NCBI GenBank assembly: GCA_029254005.1
Contig: JAQWYJ010000051.1
Location: forward strand, 1 to 32,092
Source: Porticoccaceae bacterium
GTDB taxonomy: Bacteria > Pseudomonadota > Gammaproteobacteria > Pseudomonadales > Porticoccaceae
Direction: 5' to 3'
DNA length: 32,092 nt
The notes under the pieces are model-generated. The model was not told where the DNA came from. It saw only the letters and a program-made list of their open reading frames with translations, and made no database searches. This document shows positions 1,083-12,701 of this stretch, piece after piece. Position 1 is the stretch's first letter. The number at the start of each line of letters is the position of its first letter. The position numbers were made by a program, and so were the translations under genes.

Positions 1083-1328
1083 TGGAATTTTCCTTGTGAT
1101 GATGTAAGGCTATTGATATAGCAAAAGTGAAACTCTTCACCATTTCTACCCTCTGTAACGGCTAAAGCTTAAATTGCCAGTATTTGTCTGTTTGTGTTCG
1201 CAAACTTGAACCACTACACTAGGGAAGATATTTCTGTCTGAAAAAAGCTCTAATGGATTACTCTTTCCTCACGGCACGTTGAAATAATCATGCTAATTAT
1301 CAATTTTTCTCAAGGGTGTACGGACCTA

Positions 1329-3923
1329 ATGAAACTTTTAGCTCACATACAATTCACCCTTTTTGCACTTTCAATGGTGGTTCTTTCATCTATTTCAGTC
1401 ACAGCCGCCAGCACTGATTGGGATTTTATTAATGCTCAAAAATGGTCCGGTGATGAGGTTGAAGGCTCTATTGAGTATTGCCAAAATAGCTCTCTTCGAT
1501 GGCTAACGCCTTTTTTGGATTTTGATGTCAACCTAGACAATGTAGACGACTTTTTAGTTGCCATTAGCTGCTATCAAGGAGAAAACCCTCGGGGAGAAAA
1601 ACATAACCTTGAGATGCGAGGTGCCTGGAAGATGTTCTGTAGCGATAAGGACGGTCATTACGACTGTACTAAGGACCTATTTGGGACTGATGTAATTGAA
1701 ACAACTGCATATGATGAAGATGCTGCGTGGTATGGAGGAGGTAATCCTTACATACATGTGCATGAGAAGCCAAGAGATTTAAATGGAGATGGCTATCCAG
1801 AGTTTTGGTATGCACTAAATAAGGACGATGGCCGCCCAGAATTTTTAGGCAGTGTGGAAGAAGATGCCGACCTACTTCTAGATCTATGTGAGCCTGCGCA
1901 CCCAGATAGATATCAGAGGGACTGCACTCGTCACTCTAAACAATCTATGTTAATGAGCAATCCAGATGGTACTTACGATGTCATTTTTCTTCCTTGGGAA
2001 CCGTTTTTAGCTCATGGAATGTTGGTGTTACCTAATCTGATCGGCACATTTGATCTTTTTGCCATGGCCTATGGACCATTTAAGCAAGCCAGGTGGAGCG
2101 ATGGCGAGTTTGTTGACGTGACGAATGAGTTTGAGCTGGACCCAAATTGGCATGATGTGTCATTTGGTGGCGCTCCCTACGGCAAAGTATTCAACCATGA
2201 AGATACGGTTTACGTTGTCCGCGCCGATACTCCTAATCGCTATCGACCAGAGTGGGTTAACGATGTTAACCATAGCGGATTTACACTTTGGAAATACACT
2301 CCAGAGGAGGGGTTCGCCTTCAGTGACGTCTACATCCCTGATGAAGCAGACGCCTTCAGATTCAAGATGCAGAGAGGGGATCAAATTGATACCGTGTTTG
2401 GCGCAACATTAAGAGGCCGGCCGACATATGATCCGCATTGGCATTTTTTTCATTTTGAAGTACTCGATGATACAAATGAGCCTGTGCTCATAGTACGACA
2501 GGAAGGTTTCACCACAGTAGGTGATGCATATCGAGCGCCGTATGACTCTTCATTGGTATATAAATTAGCGTCTTCGGAGGAATTAGAGACTGGAGGTGTT
2601 CTGACGAATAATCTTTTGTGGCCAGACAGCACGGTACAGGGATTTTTTGTTAGAAACGGCAAGCTCATCGAACGTGAATTACCAGTAGCTTCAGGAGATG
2701 CTCTCTCTGGCAACTACCATAAACTTAAGGATATAAATCAAGATGGTTTTTTAGATTTGATAGGAGAAGTTTACAACGAATTGCCTGCAGTCTGGTTAAA
2801 TAATGGCCAAGGCACTCTAGATCAAGTTTTTTTAGGGGACGTATTTCCGGACCTCATGAATGACGCCTCCTATTGGGACAAGACTGATCACAACATATGG
2901 GGATGGGGCGCGATGTTATACCCATTTTACAGCCCGAATAAATTGGATTTTTTATACTGGATTAAGGGATTTACTTTCCCTCCAGATGTTCTAAAGACTG
3001 ATGAGTTTGTGTATTCCCCTGGACAAATTGCTATTGCTACCGCTAAAAATTCACTCAATTTAGACAAAAAGTTTAGCCCTAAAGAGAGACATCTGCTTCA
3101 CGAGGTATGTCTTAGTAACGGTCTGACTCGAAAGCCTGGGTTTCAATTTTCTTGTTTAATGGGTACTCCCTTTCCTTATGATGAAAATCGAGACACTGAT
3201 GAAGATGGATATTTTGATCATTTAGACGCGTTTCGTTTTGACAATTCTGAGTGGCTTGATACTGATGATGACGGCATTGGAAATACCGCCGATTTGGATG
3301 ACGACGGTGATGGAGTGCTTGACACTCAAGAGATTACTGATGGAACCAATCCGCTTCTAACAGATACCGATTCTGATGGTGTTGACGATAGCTCTGATCC
3401 CTTTCCCACTGATATCCTCTATTCAATGGATTCAGACAACGACGGCATGCCTGATGCTTGGGAAACTAGCTTTGGTCTTAACCCTAATGACCCATCAGAT
3501 GCTATGAGCGATCAAGACAACGATGGCATGACTGCATTAGATGAGTTCTTGGCAGGGACTATTCCCTTAGGTTCGTTAGACATCGACGGTAATGAAAGCT
3601 ACGACGCATTAACTGACGGCCTACTCCTTTTAAGAAGTATGTTTGGATTGAGTGGCGAAGCTCTCACAATAGGATTAGTATCAAACGATGCTATCTTTAC
3701 CAACTCACAAGATATTGCGAAACGTATTGCTACGCTAAACGATCTTGCCGACATTGATGGCAACGGAAATATAGATGCACTCACAGATGGCCTACTAACC
3801 TTGCGCTACTTATTTGGTTTAGAGGGCGATGCTCTCGTTAAAGACGTGGTTGCAGATGATGCGACCAGAGTCACTGCGGAAGACATTGAAACTCACTTAG
3901 AGTCACTGGCACCAGACATTTAA
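1329..3923 (+). CDS. Secreted FG-GAP-like / thrombospondin-3 protein with paired EF-hand module
   Basis: A large exported protein (864 residues from this start). A signal peptide begins MKLLAHIQ and ends near SVTAA. An in-frame ATG at 1290 gives 13 extra residues, but the 1329 start places the signal peptide at the N terminus. Residues from about 30 to 600 contain scattered calcium-type acidic strings of FG-GAP/VCBS style (FDVNLDNVDDF near 65, DLNGDGYPEF near 150, DINQDGFLDL near 468), so a beta-propeller-like fold is plausible; I recognise no enzyme motif. Residues about 620-744 are thrombospondin type 3 repeats (DTDDDG, DDDGDG, DTDSDG). The last ~115 residues are two copies of an EF-hand-like module with DALTDG loops, shared with two other proteins in this window. 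It is convergent with the DUF1501 gene, 36 bases away. Surface or extracellular calcium-binding is likely; the ligand or substrate is unknown. Confidence 0.85.
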   Translation: MKLLAHIQFTLFALSMVVLSSISVTAASTDWDFINAQKWSGDEVEGSIEYCQNSSLRWLTPFLDFDVNLDNVDDFLVAISCYQGENPRGEKHNLEMRGAWKMFCSDKDGHYDCTKDLFGTDVIETTAYDEDAAWYGGGNPYIHVHEKPRDLNGDGYPEFWYALNKDDGRPEFLGSVEEDADLLLDLCEPAHPDRYQRDCTRHSKQSMLMSNPDGTYDVIFLPWEPFLAHGMLVLPNLIGTFDLFAMAYGPFKQARWSDGEFVDVTNEFELDPNWHDVSFGGAPYGKVFNHEDTVYVVRADTPNRYRPEWVNDVNHSGFTLWKYTPEEGFAFSDVYIPDEADAFRFKMQRGDQIDTVFGATLRGRPTYDPHWHFFHFEVLDDTNEPVLIVRQEGFTTVGDAYRAPYDSSLVYKLASSEELETGGVLTNNLLWPDSTVQGFFVRNGKLIERELPVASGDALSGNYHKLKDINQDGFLDLIGEVYNELPAVWLNNGQGTLDQVFLGDVFPDLMNDASYWDKTDHNIWGWGAMLYPFYSPNKLDFLYWIKGFTFPPDVLKTDEFVYSPGQIAIATAKNSLNLDKKFSPKERHLLHEVCLSNGLTRKPGFQFSCLMGTPFPYDENRDTDEDGYFDHLDAFRFDNSEWLDTDDDGIGNTADLDDDGDGVLDTQEITDGTNPLLTDTDSDGVDDSSDPFPTDILYSMDSDNDGMPDAWETSFGLNPNDPSDAMSDQDNDGMTALDEFLAGTIPLGSLDIDGNESYDALTDGLLLLRSMFGLSGEALTIGLVSNDAIFTNSQDIAKRIATLNDLADIDGNGNIDALTDGLLTLRYLFGLEGDALVKDVVADDATRVTAEDIETHLESLAPDI
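3579..3920 (+). repeat. Paired EF-hand-like module (C-terminal) of the FG-GAP-like protein
   Basis: Two tandem protein modules start at the first Asp of DIDGNESYDALTDG (3579) and of DIDGNGNIDALTDG (3750), exactly 57 codons apart. Each continues with a leucine-rich helix (LLLLRSMFGL, LLTLRYLFGL), then an ...GDAL... segment and a second short helix (DIAKRI, DIETHL). It resembles a dockerin type I half-repeat, but the acidic residue closing the loop is at position 13 instead of 12. Confidence 0.8.
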
Positions 3924-3959
3924 GGTGGATATGTTAGAATTTAATTATCTAATATGATA

Positions 3960-5354
3960 TCAAGAAAAAAGACCAAAATTGACATTATCAAAACGATTAT
4001 AAGTTGGAAAAATACCCGACATGTCTGAATCTGACAGACCAAACCAACGGGATAGATTTGCTGCATATTGTTCCACTGAGTATTGTGGTATAAAAGCCGA
4101 CTGATAAATATCAGGCGAGCCTATAGTAAACTCTGGCAGCGCTCCGATTACTTGCCCACCCTGAACGGGAGTGCCCATAACAAATTGATGGCCTCCCCAT
4201 CCATGGTCAGTTCCATTGGAATTAATTGAAATCGTGCGGCCAAATTCGGACTGTGTAAAAGTAACCACACGATCATCAACACCACGACCCTCAAGATCCC
4301 ACTGGAATGCTCTCATTCCATCAGCAAGTAGCTTCATCACCTTCGGAAATCCATCCGCCTGATTATCATGTGTGTCAAAGCCATTTAAGTGAACGTAAAT
4401 TACTTGCCGGTGGTGTCCTAGGCTCGGAGCGATCTCAATCAACTCTGCTGCACGCTTAAGTTGTGACGTAAATCTTTCAATAGAATCTCCATCAATTGTA
4501 TTACCCCAACTGTTTTCCGCTGTGGGATAGGAAACCAACGTAGTTGGTACTGTTGCCAAATCGCCCTGTAAAGATTGATTATTATTTACAGTTGAGTTCA
4601 CAATATTAATGAAACTTCTATCCAGGCTTCCACTACTTTTACTCGTAAGCCTATCGAAAACGTCTCGCAAAGGCAGATTTGAATTATCTTCCCAATTAAC
4701 ATATCGGCTTAAATTTTGAATACTTTCTGCACTTACTACAAATGGATTCAAAAACTGTCCGCGGACAAACTTTCTGGTATTCATCAAAGAAATATTATTT
4801 GGTACCTTTGCTGCGGAATTGTCAAACGCTTCTACTAGTCGACCGCCCCATCCTGTTTTTTCACCGACTCCAACAAATCCGGTTTGCCAAAGACTTTGAT
4901 GGTCTGAGTGAGATGCCATATATGGGGGGAGAATATTTTTATTTTGCTCGATCATAGCAAGGGTTGTGGGCTCCCTTAAAGGACCAACATTTGAGACCAC
5001 AGCAAGCTTTTCACTTTCAAATAATTCGCTAAAAGAACTTATGAAATCAGGGAATCCTACTTCACCCAAATCATCTGTCCTGGAGTAAATAGGCTGTATA
5101 GAATCTTTCTCATAAGTAAGATTTTGTCGAATATTCTTATAAGATTCGTACCCGGTATTGTCAGTTGGAACAAACAAAGAAACTGAATCAGCACCACCAT
5201 TTAAAAACACGCAGACTAACGTTTTATAGTCTCCAACAGATTTAGATCCATTTAGAAATTTTGCTACTACATCTAAGCCTGTGGAGAAGGCCAAATGCGA
5301 CCCACATAAACCAGCAGAGGCCAACCCAGACTGTAAAAATCTTCTTCTATTCAT
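3960..5354 (-). CDS. DUF1501 family Tat-exported protein
   Basis: A 464-residue protein of the DUF1501 family, which is related to the alkaline phosphatase/sulfatase superfamily. The N terminus, MNRRRFLQSGLASAG, is a twin-arginine signal, so the protein is probably exported folded, consistent with a metal-bound enzyme. Family hallmarks visible are VFLNGGADS near residue 50, HLNGFDTHDNQ in the middle, and TFTQSEFGRT followed by TDHGWGGH toward the C terminus; the D and H residues of the last two motifs are the likely metal-binding positions. It is the second gene of an operon with the DUF1800 gene: only 10 bases separate the upstream stop from this ATG, and the AAGG ribosome binding site overlaps that stop codon, suggesting coupled translation. 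DUF1800/DUF1501 pairs are common in bacteria but their biochemical role is not established. Confidence 0.9.
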   Translation of the reverse strand: MNRRRFLQSGLASAGLCGSHLAFSTGLDVVAKFLNGSKSVGDYKTLVCVFLNGGADSVSLFVPTDNTGYESYKNIRQNLTYEKDSIQPIYSRTDDLGEVGFPDFISSFSELFESEKLAVVSNVGPLREPTTLAMIEQNKNILPPYMASHSDHQSLWQTGFVGVGEKTGWGGRLVEAFDNSAAKVPNNISLMNTRKFVRGQFLNPFVVSAESIQNLSRYVNWEDNSNLPLRDVFDRLTSKSSGSLDRSFINIVNSTVNNNQSLQGDLATVPTTLVSYPTAENSWGNTIDGDSIERFTSQLKRAAELIEIAPSLGHHRQVIYVHLNGFDTHDNQADGFPKVMKLLADGMRAFQWDLEGRGVDDRVVTFTQSEFGRTISINSNGTDHGWGGHQFVMGTPVQGGQVIGALPEFTIGSPDIYQSAFIPQYSVEQYAANLSRWFGLSDSDMSGIFPTYNRFDNVNFGLFS

Positions 5355-5364
5355 AAGAATAACC

Positions 5365-7905
5365 TTATTTTTGAACTCTAAATTCTGGTGTTGTTATAAT
5401 CACATATAGCAATTCCTGCAGAAAAAAGTGACGCTCCATCTTGTCAGTAAAAGTATCACTCCAGGTCGGCCCTACCCCATCAAATGCCGGCCAATAATTA
5501 GGATCTGTGGCAAGAGCGAGCAATTCTGATTTGTAGTGAGGGCCCATATTATTGCCGGTCATATAAAGATTTAAGTAATCGACCACAGCCTCATAGCCCT
5601 CGTTTTCCCAACGCTTATCCAACTCTGAAAAGTCCCACGCTAGGGTAAACTGATCTGGATCGCTTCCATTTTTAATATCCCATTCCCATATATCTCTGGT
5701 AGTGAGCCAACGAAACATTTCTACATCATTGACGATACTTGCTTCTGTTGTGATTTGTAGCTCCGGCGCAACAAGCCCCATTTCAGCAATGTCACCAACT
5801 GGGGCAAAATCAGGTCTAAAGAAATTGAATACACTCTCTGCATAAAGTGCTCGTTGAGATGGCTCACCCGCCATTCTCGTCCATTTATGCGTACCTCGCG
5901 GATTATCCGGGCTTACGGTCTCTGGTGACAAAAGAGAAATATCAAAGAGACGATTTAAATGTGTTATCGATAGCAAGGGCTCTTTTACTTTTCCATAAAG
6001 TGGTATTTCAGCTTCGTTGGGGTTTCTTGCTTCTATGTCGAACAAAACTGCCTTAATGGTTGCACCTATATCACCGCGCACACCCTGGCCGTTATTATTA
6101 AAAACCGCACTCACACGAGCCACATACCCCGGGGTAGGATTGCTAGTCACTAGCTGTCTTATCAAGTGCATAGAGAAGAATGGAGCAAGATTTGGATGGT
6201 TAAACAAACTATCAATAACAGTTTTCACGGCATCTTTGGCGCTACCACCTGGAGGGATGAAGTACCCTCGCAAAAGGTTTTTCTCGGTCTTTTGATGAAT
6301 TTCGTCATAGGCCAACATTGGTTTTATTCCGATACCCCAGGCAATAGGAAAAGTATGGATACTTGAACTAAAGAAGGTACTTGGATGCACATCGTGGCCT
6401 CTCAGGTCATAGTACCAACCGGTTAATGCCGCAGCGTACTGAGTTATTGTCTCTTGATCGTATGTTTCAATGATGTCACCGTTGGCATCAAGTTTTAAAG
6501 AACCATCCTGATTTAATTCACTCAGGCCGATTGTAAAAAGCTGCATGACTTCTCGTGCGAAGTTTTCATCCGGGCGAATATTGTTTTCTGGATCTGCCTT
6601 AATATTGCCTAGCATACCGAGATAATGACCCATAGTGGGATGGAAAGTAACAGACTCTAACAGATCTCGGAAGTTGCCGAATGCATGCCTACCTAGAGTA
6701 TCCCAGTAGTCTGTAAATACTGTCTCTCTGTGCCCCAAATCAGTATCTCTTGATATGACAAAAAGCTGACTTAGCGCGTAAGTTACTCTATGCCGTAATT
6801 GGTCAGGACTATTTTGAGCTGTCTCAGAAAATAGCTCCACCAACCAATCCTGACCATTCTCATTTGAATCTATTTGATCAATCTCTTCAATCCAAGATGT
6901 TCGTCGCAACTCCGTCCACGAGCTAAAGGGCAAGGTAATTTGTTCATTGAACCATGCTTCACCACCCTTCTCTAAAAGGTCTTCAACTGATCGGACTGTG
7001 GGTCCAAAGGTTGCCTGAGTTAAAAATCGCACAGCATCAACATCACCATCAATCACACCAACAGGGGGCATTGTTGCGACATAAGCTGGCAATTGATCTG
7101 GTGTTGGCAACACAGGAGTGAAGATTTTGTCCACCGATGCTGTACCAAGATAACTATCAGTTACGGTAAGAGTTAATGTGTAGTTACCTATAGCATCGGG
7201 CCTAAAGCTTACTACTTCGGAATTAGTAGTATCTAACTCCGCAAGGGAGTAATTAGGGCGATCTAAGCTCCAATCGTACGTTAAAGTATGGCCCTCCTCA
7301 TCTGTACTGTTTTTCGCAGAGAAAGACGCCGCATTACCAGCTACAAACTCTTTAGAATCTAGTGCAATAACCGCTACGGGAGAAGAATTAGGTGTAACTC
7401 GGCTCTCAATTTTAGCGCTGATACCAGCTGCGGTGGTTATAGTGGCGTCATCGGCTAAGACCCCTGCGATTAGGGCATCACCCCTCAAACCAAACAAGTA
7501 CCTTAAAACAACCAATCCATCGGTTAAAGCGTCAACTTGACCATTACCATCAATATCTAAAAGAAGTCCTAATCGTGCAATACGCGCAGCAACAACATCA
7601 GAGGATTTATAGACTGCATCAGAGGCGATGGCTCCAGAAATTAATGCATCTCCAGTCAAGCCAAACATTCCTCTTAAGAGCAGCAATCCATCAGTTAAAG
7701 CGTCAAACTGCCCATTACCGTCGATATCAAAAGTAAGTCCGTCTGTAAAAATACTGTTGGGCTGCGCAACCGGTGTAGGTAGCTCCCCAATGTTGGCACG
7801 CTCAATGTTAGGAGAAAAACTCTCATCATCAGTAAATGCTAATCCAGAAAAAATTAGCATAAATGTGATGGCGCATCGTTTTAAATAGTTTTTAGAAATA
7901 ATCAT
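5365..7905 (-). CDS. DUF1800 protein with N-terminal paired EF-hand module and PKD-like domain
   Basis: An 846-residue exported protein. Residues 1-24 are a signal peptide (hydrophobic CAITFMLIFSGLAF). Residues 60-169 are two EF-hand-like modules (DIDGNGQFDALTDG at 60, DIDGNGQVDALTDG at 117). Residues about 175-265 look like a PKD/cadherin-like beta-sandwich (PVAVIALDS ... YTLTLTVTDS). The rest, about 285-846, is a DUF1800 domain: FLTQATFGP near its start, RHRVTYALSQLFVIS, the conserved DENFAREVMQLFTIGL, YAAALTGW, and a typical C-terminal LLYVIITTPEF. It is cotranscribed with DUF1501 downstream. No good Shine-Dalgarno was seen before the ATG. Having the calcium module at the N terminus, between signal peptide and main domain, is unusual relative to the other two carriers here, where it is C-terminal. 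Molecular function of DUF1800 is unknown. Confidence 0.9.
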   Translation of the reverse strand: MIISKNYLKRCAITFMLIFSGLAFTDDESFSPNIERANIGELPTPVAQPNSIFTDGLTFDIDGNGQFDALTDGLLLLRGMFGLTGDALISGAIASDAVYKSSDVVAARIARLGLLLDIDGNGQVDALTDGLVVLRYLFGLRGDALIAGVLADDATITTAAGISAKIESRVTPNSSPVAVIALDSKEFVAGNAASFSAKNSTDEEGHTLTYDWSLDRPNYSLAELDTTNSEVVSFRPDAIGNYTLTLTVTDSYLGTASVDKIFTPVLPTPDQLPAYVATMPPVGVIDGDVDAVRFLTQATFGPTVRSVEDLLEKGGEAWFNEQITLPFSSWTELRRTSWIEEIDQIDSNENGQDWLVELFSETAQNSPDQLRHRVTYALSQLFVISRDTDLGHRETVFTDYWDTLGRHAFGNFRDLLESVTFHPTMGHYLGMLGNIKADPENNIRPDENFAREVMQLFTIGLSELNQDGSLKLDANGDIIETYDQETITQYAAALTGWYYDLRGHDVHPSTFFSSSIHTFPIAWGIGIKPMLAYDEIHQKTEKNLLRGYFIPPGGSAKDAVKTVIDSLFNHPNLAPFFSMHLIRQLVTSNPTPGYVARVSAVFNNNGQGVRGDIGATIKAVLFDIEARNPNEAEIPLYGKVKEPLLSITHLNRLFDISLLSPETVSPDNPRGTHKWTRMAGEPSQRALYAESVFNFFRPDFAPVGDIAEMGLVAPELQITTEASIVNDVEMFRWLTTRDIWEWDIKNGSDPDQFTLAWDFSELDKRWENEGYEAVVDYLNLYMTGNNMGPHYKSELLALATDPNYWPAFDGVGPTWSDTFTDKMERHFFLQELLYVIITTPEFRVQK
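7399..7728 (-). repeat. Paired EF-hand-like module (N-terminal) of the DUF1800 protein
   Basis: Two tandem modules begin at residues 60 and 117 of the DUF1800 protein, 57 residues apart as in the other two carriers. Copy 1 has LLLLRGMFGLTGDALISG and copy 2 has LVVLRYLFGLRGDALIAG. Copy 1 resembles copy 1 of the plus-strand FG-GAP-like protein (RSMFGLSGEAL), and copy 2 resembles its copy 2 (RYLFGLEGDAL). Confidence 0.8.
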
Positions 7906-8470
7906 ATTAGCGTTTCATATAAAGTGTCAGCGCTACGACTGCCACAACACGATTAAAAAAATACAATTAAGCATATACAAAATTGATTTTAGTGTGCCCT
8001 TAAAAGTCAACTAAATCAATATTTTAACTAAATAATATGCCGTGTTTCTTTCTTGAAACTTAGGCAAATTATCACACTGAGTTAAAACTGCATGGTTAGT
8101 TCAGCTTGACTAGATTCGCGCTTGAAGAACCAGAGAGTACCGCTTTAACCCACACATGAATAGCTGTAAAGGCATGCGATCACGGCTAACCCCTCACGGC
8201 ATATTTTATCAAACTTGCGTTTGAATCTACCTTAGCTCTTATAAGTTAGAACTTATACAGCAAATCATGATCCAGCACATTTGAGTCATTGTATGCTTTG
8301 ACGTTGACAGTAGTCTCTTGTGATAGCAACCTAATCGCTATAATTTCGCAAAACTGTTGTAAATACGCTCTGCAGGTCAAAGAAATATAATCAAATATAT
8401 AGTACTAAACAGACTATTTGTAACATTTTTACTCTCAAATACATCGTTGACTGATTAAGTAACTAATGAG
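7906..8470. other. Non-coding stretch upstream of the DUF1800 gene
   Basis: AT-rich with frequent stops in all frames. It should hold the promoter of the DUF1800-DUF1501 operon next to 7906, but I could not pick out a convincing -35/-10 pair. No gene or RNA was recognised. Confidence 0.4.
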
Positions 8471-8473
8471 TAG

Positions 8474-8920
8474 ACGGCTGTTAGTAGATTTACAGATTTC
8501 TCAGAAAGCGCGGGTAAAATTGATGACCGTTTTGGCACAGTATAGGATTCACCTCGTTATCAAATAAAAACAAGCAATAGAATCTTCGCAACACCAGTAG
8601 TTAGAATTAGCACCTGTACAAATGGCGATAGTGTGACCATCATGGGTTACGCTATTGATGTGGGGCTTGAAACCTACAGGGCTATATCACTTCGAACTGA
8701 GTAGTATTTTCAAAACGCCACCTACGTTTTCATTGCTCCAACTTATGCCGAGGAAAAGTTTAATGCCGACGTAGGTCCAATTTTTGCAAGATCGAGGTTT
8801 TAGAATTCGGCGCAGCCGTTTTATACCGGGTATAGTTTTAGCGAAGGTGAAAAGTTGAACTTAGATATGTCTCTCGAGGACACTGATTTGGTTAGTGGTG
8901 GCTTAAAAGTTGATTTCTAA
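8474..8920 (+). pseudogene. Decayed outer-membrane beta-barrel (porin-like) gene, 3' part
   Basis: One reading frame runs about 149 codons and is interrupted by three in-frame TAG codons (8546-8548, 8702-8704, 8801-8803), yet keeps protein-like sequence across all of them. Recognisable pieces are SRFTDFSESAGKIDDRFG, YAIDVGLETYRAISL, PTYAEEKFNADVGP and YTGYSFSEGEKLNLDM, ending in GGLKVDF and TAA. Alternating hydrophobic residues and a terminal Phe are typical of the beta-signal of outer-membrane barrels, and DSPRYQ after the first stop recalls general porins. No start, signal peptide or ribosome binding site is found upstream; another TAG precedes the relic at 8471. I infer an old porin-like gene that lost its 5' half and gained nonsense mutations. 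The exact family cannot be named. Confidence 0.5.
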
Positions 8921-9078
8921 ACTGTTTTTTACGCCATAAAACAGATGAAAAGTAATCTAGCAACTTTTCTGAAGAGACGCTTTATCATCATCCTCATCCC
9001 TATCAGCTTAGAACTCTGGCTTGCCCGCCAAGATTCGTACCTTGTTAGGTTTAAGCGAGTACATTGTTTACCTAAACC

Positions 9079-9195
9079 TTAGACATTATTATAAGTACTA
9101 GCACAATCACTCAGCGATATTTGGCGTTCTGCAGGATTGTTAAGAATAATACCACCATCAAAATCAGTGACAATTGACAACCCTAGTGGCCCTCT
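9079..9195 (-). pseudogene. Possible histidine-kinase ATPase-domain remnant (C-terminal end)
   Basis: A 38-codon open stretch ending in TAA reads RGPLGLSIVTDFDGGIILNN followed by PAERQ. GLSIV and GG-I-L-N match the G2 box and last strands of the HATPase_c domain of sensor kinases (usual form GLGLSIV...GG.I.L.N), with several residues between them apparently deleted. It abuts the stop codon of the Sel1-repeat gene, which occupies where the rest of a kinase would lie. No start codon is assigned. The match is short, so this is a tentative relic rather than a gene. Confidence 0.35.
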
Positions 9196-9197
9196 GA

Positions 9198-10391
9198 CTA
9201 GTCACAAAATTGAAACGCAGACGCCAAACATTCTTTAGCGAGAGCTATTCCTTTGGCTACATCACCTGGAGCCATGTTCGCAGCCAGCTTCTGTAGATTA
9301 AAAGATGCTCCAGATTGGCCTGCAGTCTCTGCAATCGAATACCACTGATATGCTTTAATACTATTTTTGGGTGTACCCTGGCCATAGCGATAAGCATAAG
9401 CAATATTTAATTGCGCCAAGCCATATTGCTGGATAGCAGACTTTCTCAGCCAACCGAAGGCTTGTGTATCGTCTTGTTCAACTCCCTGACCCAAATGGTA
9501 CATAGATCCTATGTTTTTCTGCGCAATAGCATCGCCCTGCACAGCACTTTTCAAATACCATTGAACTGCAGTCTCATAACTACGCTCAACATAACGTCCG
9601 TTAAAATATAATATACCAAGATTGCGTTGTGCTACTAGATCGCCAGCACTGGCTGCTTTTTCTGACCATTCTAGAGCTTTAAGGCCGTCTATAGCTGTGC
9701 CAATACCATTCAAGTACATCTCCCCAAGTCGAGCCTGAGCGGCCACATAACCTTGTTCGGCAGCTCTGCTAAACCACATAAATGCTTTATCTAGATCTTG
9801 GCCAAGAAAAGACGGATCAACATAAATAGAACCCAATTCGAACTGCGCCCTCAAATTTCCCTGTTCGGCTGCTCGAAGGAACCAGTTAGTCGCCTCTTCG
9901 AGATTTTGTTCAAAAGCCACGCCAGTAACTAGGTATTCACCCACTCGAACTTGAGCGTCTACAAGACCCTGTTCCGCAGCGGATAACATCAAGTTAGCTA
10001 TGTCGGCTTGATTACTTGGAACTACCTTACCCTGTTCGTACATCAATGCTAGGTTATACTGAGCTTGGCCAAAGCCTGCTTCAGCCGCATCAGCATAAAA
10101 TTTTTCGGCTAATCGGTCATTCTCAGGGATCCCCAAGCCTTTTTCGTACATTTTGGCTAACTCAAACTGGCTCATAGTATGTCCCTGCTCAGCAGATTTC
10201 GAAAACCAGTTGATAGCTTCGTTGTTGTCCTGAGCAACATCTTTTCCAGAACGATAACTCGTTGCCACACCAAACTGCGCCTCTGGATCTCCGCCTTGAG
10301 CATTTTTTAGCATTGCTTCAAAGTCTGCGGCCGTAACTACACCACTTAGCGCTAGCATCATGGATAAACCCATTAATAATTTTTTACTCAT
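9198..10391 (-). CDS. Periplasmic Sel1-repeat protein
   Basis: A 397-residue protein with a signal peptide (MSKKLLMGLSMMLALSGVVTA, cleavage near AADFE). The remainder is a run of about ten Sel1-like (TPR-related) repeats of ~36 residues, seen in recurring AEQG...AQ..LG.(M/I)Y..G...(D)..A..W(F/Y) patterns such as SAEQGHTMSQFELAKMYEKG and AAEQGYVAAQARLGEMYLNG. Such solenoids mediate protein-protein contacts, in many cases in envelope signalling or assembly; the partner is not shown here. The C terminus ends in a Cys-containing tail (CLASAFQFCD). The start ATG has no Shine-Dalgarno of its own and is overlapped by a 9-codon leader ORF that does. A sigma70-like promoter lies at 10446-10473. It is divergent from the M64 peptidase gene, 252 bases away. 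Confidence 0.9.
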   Translation of the reverse strand: MSKKLLMGLSMMLALSGVVTAADFEAMLKNAQGGDPEAQFGVATSYRSGKDVAQDNNEAINWFSKSAEQGHTMSQFELAKMYEKGLGIPENDRLAEKFYADAAEAGFGQAQYNLALMYEQGKVVPSNQADIANLMLSAAEQGLVDAQVRVGEYLVTGVAFEQNLEEATNWFLRAAEQGNLRAQFELGSIYVDPSFLGQDLDKAFMWFSRAAEQGYVAAQARLGEMYLNGIGTAIDGLKALEWSEKAASAGDLVAQRNLGILYFNGRYVERSYETAVQWYLKSAVQGDAIAQKNIGSMYHLGQGVEQDDTQAFGWLRKSAIQQYGLAQLNIAYAYRYGQGTPKNSIKAYQWYSIAETAGQSGASFNLQKLAANMAPGDVAKGIALAKECLASAFQFCD

Positions 10392-10413
10392 AGTAACGTG
10401 CGGTTAGGTGCAT
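10384..10413 (-). promoter_or_regulatory. Short leader ORF overlapping the Sel1 gene start
   Basis: A 9-codon ORF (MHLTARYYE, stop TAA) starts six bases after a strong GGAG Shine-Dalgarno (10420-10423). Its last codons overlap the first codons of the Sel1 gene in another frame: TATGAGTAA contains both the Sel1 ATG and the leader stop. The Sel1 ATG itself has no purine-rich site upstream, so ribosomes probably load at the leader and reinitiate. Inference only. Confidence 0.45.
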
Positions 10414-10445
10414 GTTTGTCTCCAAAAAATTAACTACATCCCTTC

Positions 10446-10473
10446 ACTATACCCTGTTGAATATTTTGGACAA
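10446..10473 (-). promoter_or_regulatory. Putative sigma70 promoter of the Sel1 gene
   Basis: On the minus strand, -35 TTGTCC and -10 TATAGT are separated by 16 bases. A start about 7 bases further on would give a leader of roughly 25 bases before the short leader ORF at 10413. Confidence 0.45.
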
Positions 10474-10643
10474 CTCATATAGTCCCGTGCCTTCGAGTGA
10501 TCTAACATTCGCTATAGATTAAAATATTTATGTTTTAGGTTGAACGATCTTTTTTTATGTAAAGAAATAGTGACAATACCATTAATCTCTGTAACATTTT
10601 ACCCACTAGAACGTTAATACTTATATCAAAAGTCCTAATACAG

Positions 10644-12701
10644 GTGATTATGGCTACTCTACTATGCAAGACCCCATTTTTAGCTAAGCTTCGCATCGGC
10701 GTAATTTTTATATCTGTACTTTTGGCCAATGGGAGCAGTGCAGAGACAGATAAGTACCCAGTTAGTGATCGCCAAATCCCTAGTTTAACTAATCAAAAGC
10801 CATATCTTCTGCCAGACAAATTCTCTAGTGAAAAGACTAACCTCTCTGTCACCCCTATTGGCGATATAAACCCAGCTAATCGAATCACATTGGCAATTAT
10901 TGGTGATGGTTATATCGAAACTGAATTAACTACTCGCTATCAACCTATGGTTGATTCAACGCTAGATTATTTTTTCAATAATAAGCAAAAAACGGCTCCG
11001 TATCCTCGTTATAAAAATTTTTTCAACATCTACCGGATAGATATTTCAAGCAATGAGTCAGGAGTGGATGACTTAACTAATAATGTTTATCGTGACACCG
11101 CTCTGGGCGGCGAAAATGGATGTACCGACTACACCATTGGTATTTGTGGGGCAAATTGGTCCCTTGTGCATAGCGCGTTTAGACAAGCAGAACGACTCGG
11201 CTCATTCACTACAGATTGGCGTTTAGTAATGCTCAATGACAATTCCTATAACGCTGCAGCTCATTATCCTTCGGAGGGGCCATTACCGATCTATTCTGCG
11301 CATTATACGGGGCAATGGGACATGCGAGATATTGCCCTGCATGAGGGCGCTCATGCCTGGCATTATTTAGCTGATGAATATGGCGGTAATCCGGCCTTTT
11401 ACCCTTACTCAGAACCCAGCGAAGTGAATGTAACCACGAATTCTAATGGTACCAAATGGTCGAATTGGCTAGGTTTTACCATGCCAGATAGCTCTATTGT
11501 TGGGGCTTACGAGGGCGGTCGTTACTATGATCGCGGAATATATCGACCAACTGAATCAAGTAAGATGAATGGTGGCCCCGGCAATTGTCACTTCATTGGT
11601 AATAAATGTGGTCATAATGCCATAGCCATTGAAAAAATTATTCTAGACATCTATACCTTAGTAGACCCGATAGATTCATACACTGATAATGGTGAAATCA
11701 TCAGAGATCCAAAGTCCATTTCAATTGAAGTGATAGACTCAAACGTCATCCTTACAAATTGGTACATAGATGATCAACTTGTGCTAGAAAAAGCGGATAA
11801 CAGCATAGACATTGGTAATCTTATTTCTAGTGCTGGTAGCTATCAGATTTCAGTTAGAGCCTGGGACGAGGTAATTGACCATGCTTTCTCGGACAACAGC
11901 AATCCAAGTCCATTAGATTTTGTACGTAAAAATCTGGAGTCGTTGGAGCAGACTATCACATGGAGTATCGTCTTAGATGACAACGATAATGACCAAATTA
12001 TAAATATTAGCGACAATTGCGTTGATATTCCTAACAGTGACCAATTAAATACTGACAGTGACGAAGAAGGTGATCTCTGCGATCCAGATGATGATAACGA
12101 TGGCGTCGATGATCATGAAGATTCATTTCCAAAAGATCCCTTTGAATATGTAGACTCCGATGGCGATGGTGTGGGTGACAACAGTGATGTCTTCCCAAAT
12201 GACAGCTCAGAGTCAGTAGATACAGATGGAGACGGCCAAGGTAATAATGCTGATGCGGACGACGACGGCGATGGTGTTACTGACGAGCAGGAGCTAGTTG
12301 ATGGAACCGATCCGCTCAATCGATTTTCATGTATCAGCGACTGCTTTACCTTTGACATTGATGATAATGAGCAAACTCAAGCGCTCACAGATGGAATCTT
12401 AGTGATCCGCCACCTGTTCGGACTATCTGGTGAGTCCCTTATCAATGATGTTATTGCGCTAGATGCCGAGCGAGAATCTGCAGATGATATCATTCAATAT
12501 CTCACAGACGCAGACTCTGAACTTGACATTGATGGTGACGGAAATACGGATGCACTCACTGATGGTTTATTGCTATTACGATATCTATTCGGCATCCGCA
12601 GCGATGGTTTAATAACCGACGCTGTAGCGCCAGATGCGCAAAGAAAAACCGCACAGCAGATTGAAGAATACATTGACCTGCGAATTCTAACCAAAAAATA
12701 A
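10644..12701 (+). CDS. Secreted M64-family metallopeptidase with thrombospondin-3 repeats and paired EF-hand module
   Basis: A 685-residue exported protein. The start is GTG at 10644; an ATG two codons later (10650) is an alternative. A signal peptide covers about residues 1-33 (LRIGVIFISVLLANGSSA). Residues about 78-330 match the M64 (IgA peptidase-type) domain: ITLAIIGDGY near 81, then the zinc motif HEGAHAWHYLADEYGG with H233, E234 and H237, and D244/E245 in the family's LADEY string. Cysteines at GNCHFIGNKCG may form a disulfide. Residues about 445-562 are thrombospondin type 3 repeats (DDDNDG, DSDGDG, DTDGDG, DDDGDG with SFPKD/VFPND linkers). Residues 571 onward are the two EF-hand-like modules. 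The catalytic residues look intact, so an active calcium-stabilised extracellular peptidase is likely; substrate unknown. It is divergent from the Sel1 gene. Confidence 0.88.
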   Translation: MIMATLLCKTPFLAKLRIGVIFISVLLANGSSAETDKYPVSDRQIPSLTNQKPYLLPDKFSSEKTNLSVTPIGDINPANRITLAIIGDGYIETELTTRYQPMVDSTLDYFFNNKQKTAPYPRYKNFFNIYRIDISSNESGVDDLTNNVYRDTALGGENGCTDYTIGICGANWSLVHSAFRQAERLGSFTTDWRLVMLNDNSYNAAAHYPSEGPLPIYSAHYTGQWDMRDIALHEGAHAWHYLADEYGGNPAFYPYSEPSEVNVTTNSNGTKWSNWLGFTMPDSSIVGAYEGGRYYDRGIYRPTESSKMNGGPGNCHFIGNKCGHNAIAIEKIILDIYTLVDPIDSYTDNGEIIRDPKSISIEVIDSNVILTNWYIDDQLVLEKADNSIDIGNLISSAGSYQISVRAWDEVIDHAFSDNSNPSPLDFVRKNLESLEQTITWSIVLDDNDNDQIINISDNCVDIPNSDQLNTDSDEEGDLCDPDDDNDGVDDHEDSFPKDPFEYVDSDGDGVGDNSDVFPNDSSESVDTDGDGQGNNADADDDGDGVTDEQELVDGTDPLNRFSCISDCFTFDIDDNEQTQALTDGILVIRHLFGLSGESLINDVIALDAERESADDIIQYLTDADSELDIDGDGNTDALTDGLLLLRYLFGIRSDGLITDAVAPDAQRKTAQQIEEYIDLRILTKK
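12354..12692 (+). repeat. Paired EF-hand-like module (C-terminal) of the M64 peptidase
   Basis: Module copy 1 starts at 12354 (DIDDNEQTQALTDG) and copy 2 at 12525 (DIDGDGNTDALTDG), again 57 codons apart. Copy 1 is the most diverged of the six in the window: loop position 9 is Gln rather than Asp. Copy 2 keeps the full acidic loop and the LLLLRYLFG helix. Confidence 0.8.

Follow-up and report, generated by a model that had tools for sequence, protein, structure and literature searches.

Assembly by cohesins and dockerins has been described mainly in anaerobic degraders of plant fibre, and SAR92 is a widespread aerobic marine clade. The subject here is a stretch of 32,092 nucleotides (the window) from a Porticoccaceae bacterium (assembly GCA_029254005.1, contig JAQWYJ010000051.1), whose genus includes the SAR92 isolate HTCC2207 (G040), taken here to be a cultured isolate. 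Three exported proteins encoded in the window carry a pair of 57-residue units that resembles a dockerin. Since this dockerin-like tag is accompanied by a surface-anchored cohesin-fold protein in related genomes, including that of the window, the module-bearing bacteria probably dock secreted proteins on their own surface. A divergent cohesin-dockerin surface-docking system, in which the two domains would bind each other, is considered the likely explanation. The host is presumably an aerobic marine Gram-negative bacterium.

Two described arrangements come closest. In the marine gammaproteobacterium Saccharophagus degradans, two dockerin-like and six cohesin-like frames were reported and a binding test was proposed, according to the sections of the report used here (PMC2386152). 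Both cases combine cohesin-like and dockerin-like frames without a cellulosome in a marine gammaproteobacterium; they differ, when the Saccharophagus frames are compared from that description, in the up to 31 module matches per genome, the cohesin adjacency and the surface sorting found here. The other is the JDVT-CTERM/MrtJ system (NF033191, NF033192), in which MrtJ and one JDVT-CTERM protein form a two-gene neighbourhood in beta- and gammaproteobacteria; the sections of that account used here make no mention of cohesin (PMC11980579). The genome of the window likewise has the signal, on its cohesin protein, plus MrtJ. In four genomes studied here, however, the JDVT-CTERM protein bears a cohesin and a third gene encodes a dockerin-like carrier. 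Unlike a cellulosome, the window's genome has a cohesin protein with one cohesin and not a multi-cohesin scaffoldin holding cellulases, and several cohesins per chain were found only in some reduced-genome relatives (four in L148). Among open-licence papers, none was found that joins SAR92 with dockerin or SAR92 with cohesin, although a description elsewhere is possible.

Paired modules in three exported proteins

The first-pass annotation of the window listed six module copies, two per protein, and six-frame translation confirmed all of them in place. The motif ALTDG occurs six times in this translation, always in the three carrier frames (3606 and 3777 on the plus strand, 7701 and 7530 on the minus strand, and 12381 and 12552 on the plus strand). 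Carrier 1 (1290–3923, plus strand; from open reading frame and Pfam analysis) is an exported protein of 877 aa with TSP3-like repeats and a C-terminal module pair. Its copies lie at 3576–3746 (profile E 9.9e-28) and 3747–3917 (E 2.2e-29), with the stop one residue after the second. The DUF1800 carrier is exported and 846 aa long; its strand had to be corrected, the gene lying on the minus strand at 5365–7905. Here the order is a module pair near the N-terminus (copy 1 at 7561–7731, E 7.9e-28; copy 2 at 7390–7560, E 1.3e-28), a PKD domain (PKD_4, E 1.1e-7) and the DUF1800 domain (E 1.2e-71). The M64 carrier (10644–12701, plus strand; Peptidase_M64 E 2.3e-22) is an exported metallopeptidase of 685 aa with TSP3-like repeats and a C-terminal pair at 12351–12521 (E 7.3e-28) and 12522–12692 (E 2.5e-28), the stop following two residues later. 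The labels DUF1800 and M64 given previously agree with Pfam. The label "FG-GAP-like" for carrier 1 was dropped, as Pfam gave no FG-GAP match and only TSP3_bac below its cut-off (E 0.0055).

The 57-residue period proposed earlier is exact (171 nt) in all three window proteins but is not universal among relatives: measured by profile start, the spacing is 57 in 84 of 135 pairs, 56 in 23, 59 in 11 and another value in 17, part of which are clipped profile matches. Pairwise identity among the six window copies is 40–61%. Like-positioned copies are closest between carrier 1 and the DUF1800 carrier (0.58 for the first copies, 0.61 for the second), whereas the first M64 copy is about equidistant from the others (0.40–0.47), so that the resemblance claimed among first copies is only partly true. 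Profile A1, built from the six window copies, scores these same copies at E 1e-27 to 2e-29. Searched whole at E up to 1, the three window proteins gave no Pfam or NCBIfam match over the module. The recurrence of the module in the window is far beyond chance.

The pair as one domain of exported proteins

Carrier frames, 144 in all, were collected from partly overlapping loci, 11 of them from a viral collection. Exactly two copies are present in 135 of these frames, one copy in 9 and more than two in none. Three of the one-copy frames are cut by locus ends; L016, L020, L043 and L044 look like true singles, with L069 and L074 left out of that group. Further single-copy carriers are L202, L203 and L212, while L043/L198 and L044/L199 are the same genes. 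The single-copy carriers L198, L199, L202, L203 and L212 lie divergently beside a cohesin gene, and Pfam finds collagen triple-helix repeats in L202 and L203. As a speculation, a collagen trimer could unite three half-units.

In a tree of 254 copies, the labels "first" and "second" are accounted for by 21 changes, where 100 shuffles required 85 on average and never fewer than 70, and the partner copy from the same protein is the sister of only 10 of the 254 copies. The pair has therefore mostly moved as a unit, and independent duplication within each protein, which would have grouped the two copies together, is not what the tree gave. The earlier view that the pair was duplicated once and then spread holds for the spread; a strict single duplication does not follow, since the best single split (62 second copies and one first copy against all others) classifies only 188 of the 254. 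The module pair behaves as one domain.

Whether all carriers are exported had been posed as a check, a scatter over cytoplasmic proteins counting against a tag; the carriers do look exported. Among 100 unique carriers whose frame start is intact, 87 were scored as having a signal-peptide-like start; the same loci contributed 336 other frames, of which 147 did. The score is home-made and the control frames include secreted neighbours and spurious frames, so that it shows enrichment only; of the 13 carriers it missed, two were masked and some others visibly have a signal peptide. A domain scan of 49 of the 149 unique carriers returned mixed families, with GH16 in 5 of the 49. No cellulase family was among the 25 viewed of the 47 families found. 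Sorted by position, 58 of 127 unique pairs reach to 20 residues or fewer from the C-terminus, 46 begin in the first 130 residues of the frame, 21 lie elsewhere (some in cut frames) and 2 have no position call.

Resemblance to dockerins

An alignment of 116 of the 127 unique pairs (A3) was used for an AlphaFold2 model of the pair, for which the DUF1800 pair (7390–7737) was the stretch predicted (pLDDT 95.8, pTM 0.87). In each predicted unit a loop leads into a helix of 12 residues and a short helix, after which come a second loop and a longer helix. When the pair profile was compared with 28 Pfam-type dockerins of the class, an HH probability of 96.3 and a score of 48.3 were obtained, dockerin segment 1 falling on copy 1 and segment 2 on copy 2 of the profile alignment. 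Forty column-shuffled dockerin alignments gave a probability of at most 1.5 and a score of at most 13.9, and the control comparisons of module with cohesin and cohesin with dockerin gave 0.4 and 0.6. Relative to a dockerin, the pair has one extra residue per Ca loop and about two dozen extra residues between segments. The extra residue stands before the last ligand-type D, so that neither loop fits the 12-residue EF-type pattern, while the ligand-type Ds are kept. The first D, the third-position D, the last D and the following R of the Ca loop are 99–100% conserved in both copies across the 116 pairs.

The families of EF-hand type included in the profile comparison were TSP3 and dockerin, and the comparison bears on another explanation, by which the units would be common calcium repeats of TSP3 or EF-hand type that are present in twos by chance. 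Two of the three window carriers do have TSP3-like repeats before the pair, EF-hand_1 matches 40 of the 116 pairs at E <= 10, and among solved-structure sequences the pair matches mainly calmodulin loops (E 0.006 or worse; best 60 of 198 matches). The TSP3 profile, however, scores 14.7, at background level, compared with 48.3 for dockerins; two copies are fixed in 135 of 144 frames; and a simple loop would not include the conserved ALTDG and R-x-x-F-G positions. Chance pairing of ordinary repeats is accordingly regarded as highly improbable.

At E <= 10, the commonest Pfam match of the pairs is Dockerin_1 (66 of 116, best E 9.5e-6), and single pairs of relatives may pass the Pfam cut-off. The window DUF1800 pair reaches 13.9 bits, under the gathering cut-off of 22.9. 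"Classical dockerin" was rejected as a direct label, the window copies being below the cut-off and the domain being longer. Judged from sequence, the pair is dockerin-like and not a member of PF00404. With type I dockerins it shares two Ca-loop/helix segments per domain in register, a frequent position at the ends of exported proteins and a cohesin-fold protein in the genome. It differs in its length (about 115 residues compared with 57 in the Pfam model), in the longer Ca loops and in that Foldseek returned no solved-fold match at E <= 0.001.

A cohesin-type partner candidate

Pfam Cohesin gave no match in the genome of the window. It exceeded its cut-off in 5 of 50 genus genomes, all among the seven richest in modules. 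Weak matches at E <= 1 were not counted as cohesins, because they were also seen in the module-free G042 (E 0.015) and in the E. coli control. A clade cohesin profile (A4) was built from 39 of 55 domain matches, with short, duplicate or masked ones omitted, taken from the Pfam-positive genus genomes and from loci around modules; G166 and G331 did not contribute. A4 finds cohesin-like domains in 22 of the 50 genus genomes, the one in the window's genome at E 5.5e-32. The initial Pfam reading that this genome has no cohesin was thereby overturned, the link running through the clade profile only.

The cohesin domain of HTCC2207 was predicted as an all-beta structure of ten strands (pLDDT 95.6). 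In Foldseek, ranks 1–10 were all cohesins (E 6.6e-6 to 2.3e-5, TM-scores 0.48–0.66), chain identity in complex entries being judged by length. Rank 11 was the CLIPPER adhesin domain, and PrgB Ig-like domains were among the top 50; since these also match, the fold match alone is not exclusive to cohesin. The clade domain resembles PF00963 in its predicted beta-sandwich fold and in the Pfam matches of those five genomes. It differs in a conserved acidic stretch (D-x-D-N-D-x-x-T-D-like), in that Pfam misses the copy in the window's genome and in that its profile matches no solved-chain sequence at E <= 10.

Co-occurrence of module and cohesin

It had been suggested that a cohesin-like or sorting partner might co-vary with the module, and a cohesin-type partner does so in presence and number. 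In a sample of 369 genomes of the class, the module was found in three (that of the window, G166 and G331), and A4 cohesins were found in the same three. Without the window's genome, the same two of 368 genomes are picked out twice, a coincidence of 1 in 67,528 if all genomes are treated alike. Within the genus, both are present in 21 genomes, the module alone in 11, the cohesin alone in 1 and neither in 17 (Fisher p 2.8e-5); with a completeness of at least 90% required, the counts are 17, 4, 1 and 8 (p 6e-4), and module and cohesin match numbers correlate across the genus with a Spearman coefficient of 0.73. The class-sample coincidence is a cleaner test than the genus counts. In the only genus genome with a cohesin and no module (G028:C43:111058-111516, L205), the cohesin gene contains stops, as if the system were being lost.

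Several results weigh against a docking pair. The Fisher and Spearman values are optimistic, because the genomes are related, match numbers include fragments and one chain often bears both domains; A4 itself is tuned to cohesins that accompany modules, because it was built from module-bearing loci and genomes. Eleven of the 32 module-bearing genus genomes have no detected cohesin, including four that are at least 90% complete (G003, G011, G016 and G024). In G003, G015, G025 and G032 a contig end truncates a JDVT-CTERM frame, so that the cohesin may be unassembled there. Its lack in G011, G016 and G024 has no such explanation, and in G016 the carriers and MrtJ share a contig on which no cohesin was found. 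Among 14 further module-bearing genomes, counted without G166 and G331, 7 have such a cohesin and 7 do not. The window's genome has one detected cohesin domain, outside the window, for six module frames; carriers would have to compete or share many scaffold copies, and a second cohesin is possible because two other JDVT-CTERM frames are cut at contig starts. On the module side, the Pfam dockerin model (PF00404) has no match in this genome at E <= 0.001, and Foldseek returned no solved fold for the pair model, dockerins included, at E <= 0.001.

Putative surface anchor and gene order

The cohesin protein of the window's genome (G000, contig C13; 1592 aa) has a signal-peptide-like start and one cohesin at residues 39–193, followed by a cadherin-like domain, six HYR domains, Invasin_D3/Big_1, choice-of-anchor U and JDVT-CTERM, the last at 33.4 bits against the NCBIfam cut-off of 27. 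JDVT-CTERM was found in 23 of the 50 genus genomes (19 over the cut-off). The window's genome has five such frames (C13, C106, two on C110, and C112), one of them of 4105 residues and two cut at contig starts; a cohesin was detected in the C13 frame only. The MrtJ protease exceeds its cut-off in 25 of 50 genus genomes, the window's own (contig C43) at E 1.8e-28; it does so in 22 of 32 module-bearing compared with 3 of 18 module-free genomes.

Gene order links the same components. The cohesin gene is divergent from a carrier gene and an MrtJ gene that run together in G002, G046, G039 and G044, and in HTCC2207 the carrier, the cohesin protein and MrtJ lie within one 9-kb stretch. There the cohesin is at L076:9139-9576, and the gene immediately upstream has the module pair (within L076:5908-8757). 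In G166 a cohesin protein with Calx-beta domains adjoins a trypsin-like carrier, each being the only one found in the genome. With G023, these make seven genomes in which a separate cohesin gene stands beside a carrier gene. Some reduced-genome relatives have their cohesins on lipoprotein-like proteins (L146, L149, L145 and L211; lipobox read by eye), and in L148 four are present on a cadherin-repeat protein. Module and cohesin share one chain in 30 of 74 cohesin frames, counted over overlapping loci.

That last count also fits a different explanation, by which module and cohesin-like domain were co-inherited in an exported toolkit and do not bind, the module being a calcium-stabilised cap or spacer at protein ends. 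The positions of the pairs (58 of 127 at the C-terminus, 46 of 127 near the frame start) are those a cap would have, and the 11 module-bearing genus genomes without a detected cohesin speak for it too. A cap, however, needs no partner, yet separate cohesin genes adjoin carrier genes in seven genomes, and the 3 of 369 class genomes that have the module are exactly those with the cohesin. The near-invariant motif in both copies further suggests recognition. A non-binding cap is hence thought unlikely.

The first-pass annotation had read the module as a sorting, anchoring or docking tag. A tag is supported and docking is favoured, the known sorting signal sitting on the partner. A role for the module as a tag read by secretion or sorting machinery, in the manner of PEP-CTERM or a T9SS C-terminal domain, is very unlikely. 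It would suit carriers that look exported and the 58 of 127 pairs at the very C-terminus. On the other hand, 46 of the 127 pairs stand near the N-terminus and 21 are internal (some of these in cut frames), the predicted structure shows neither a long hydrophobic segment nor a basic tail at its end, and the genome has a separate known sorting signal and protease, with the signal on the cohesin protein.

In the docking system favoured here, each pair of 57-residue units would form one enlarged, divergent dockerin, the plug by which secreted enzymes and further exported proteins are attached. A different exported protein, held at the cell surface, would provide the socket in the form of the divergent cohesin domain. 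The socket protein of the window's genome would present an N-terminal cohesin on an HYR/Ig-like rod, with a C-terminal JDVT-CTERM cut by MrtJ; in some reduced-genome relatives, cohesins would be held by lipoprotein-like proteins and by cadherin-repeat proteins of very large size, the latter with as many as four cohesins. Calcium-dependent capture on the outer surface may hold exported carriers (DUF1800, M64 peptidase and GH16-like), and it is proposed that hydrolysis products would consequently stay near the cell. The basis obtained for this scheme comprises the modules, their pairing, both predicted folds, the dockerin register, the co-occurrence, the adjacency and the sorting signal with its protease; from it we infer physical binding, calcium dependence, outer-surface location and a benefit to the cell.

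Distribution of the module and neighbouring genes

Profile A1 finds 12 module copies in 6 frames of the window's genome (2.55 Mb, 94% complete), always two per frame and six copies more than in the window. One further carrier, on contig C13, has its pair right behind a signal-peptide-like start and then two GH16-like stretches, GH16 being a candidate label read from the sequence. Another, on C54, is a TSP3-rich protein truncated by the contig start. A degenerate-looking short module pair in a 136-residue frame (G000:C78:2742-3149, L015) is perhaps a decayed carrier gene.

Relatives searched amounted to 94 genomes including that of the window, 50 of its genus and 44 others. Module matches at E <= 1e-5 were found in 32 of the 50 genus genomes, the window's included; the 44 genomes of other genera in the same family or order gave none. 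Of the 12 genus genomes of 1.2–1.7 Mb, 7 have 13–31 copies, one has 2 and 4 have none; one genome of 2.3 Mb has 25. Among the best 80 of 106 confirmed places in named genomes, the module also occurs outside the genus, for example in a Prochloraceae cyanobacterium. The pairs of this cyanobacterium (L086 and L120) stand C-terminally, or nearly so, in frames that show no obvious signal peptide; RTX-like repeats were read by eye in one of these frames, and the genome (G459) also contains two clade-type cohesins.

Eleven contigs of the IMG/VR viral collection (L126–L136), of putative viral origin, also have the module, for the most part early in large frames and with the two copies further apart; no cohesin was found in these contigs. 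The whole L132 protein scores 26.3 bits with Dockerin_1 (cut-off 22.9), yet no single stretch exceeds the cut-off, and Pfam returned nothing diagnostic for three of these contigs. A partial one-module match (E 8e-3, from a query with one wrong residue) was seen on a plasmid of Pseudanabaena PCC 7367 (NC_019690.1:7446-7553).

Two other genes of the carrier region have no module. Directly downstream of the DUF1800 gene, a DUF1501 protein is encoded at 3960–5354 on the minus strand (Pfam DUF1501 E 8.9e-33). A Sel1-repeat protein with nine repeat matches lies between two carriers at 9198–10391. The 1.3 kb from the DUF1800 gene to the Sel1-repeat gene (7906–9197) contains no open frame of at least 100 residues.

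Implications for the SAR92 clade

With less assurance than for docking itself, we lean towards a broader view, in which the SAR92 clade would possess full cohesin-dockerin display, with a new dockerin architecture of paired 57-residue units and a surface-sorted cohesin receptor, expanded in some reduced genomes to a cellulosome-like machine. The expanded form would comprise up to 31 module copies, lipoprotein anchors, adaptors with cohesin and module, and multi-cohesin cadherin-like scaffolds in aerobic, streamlined Gram-negative plankton. Because the carrier, cohesin and sorting-protease genes stand together in HTCC2207, the docking reading is directly testable there. If true, it would provide a function for some JDVT-CTERM/MrtJ pairs and for an unannotated module, and a new plug-and-socket pair for protein engineering. 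It would also explain how plankton cells keep secreted hydrolases from diffusing off.

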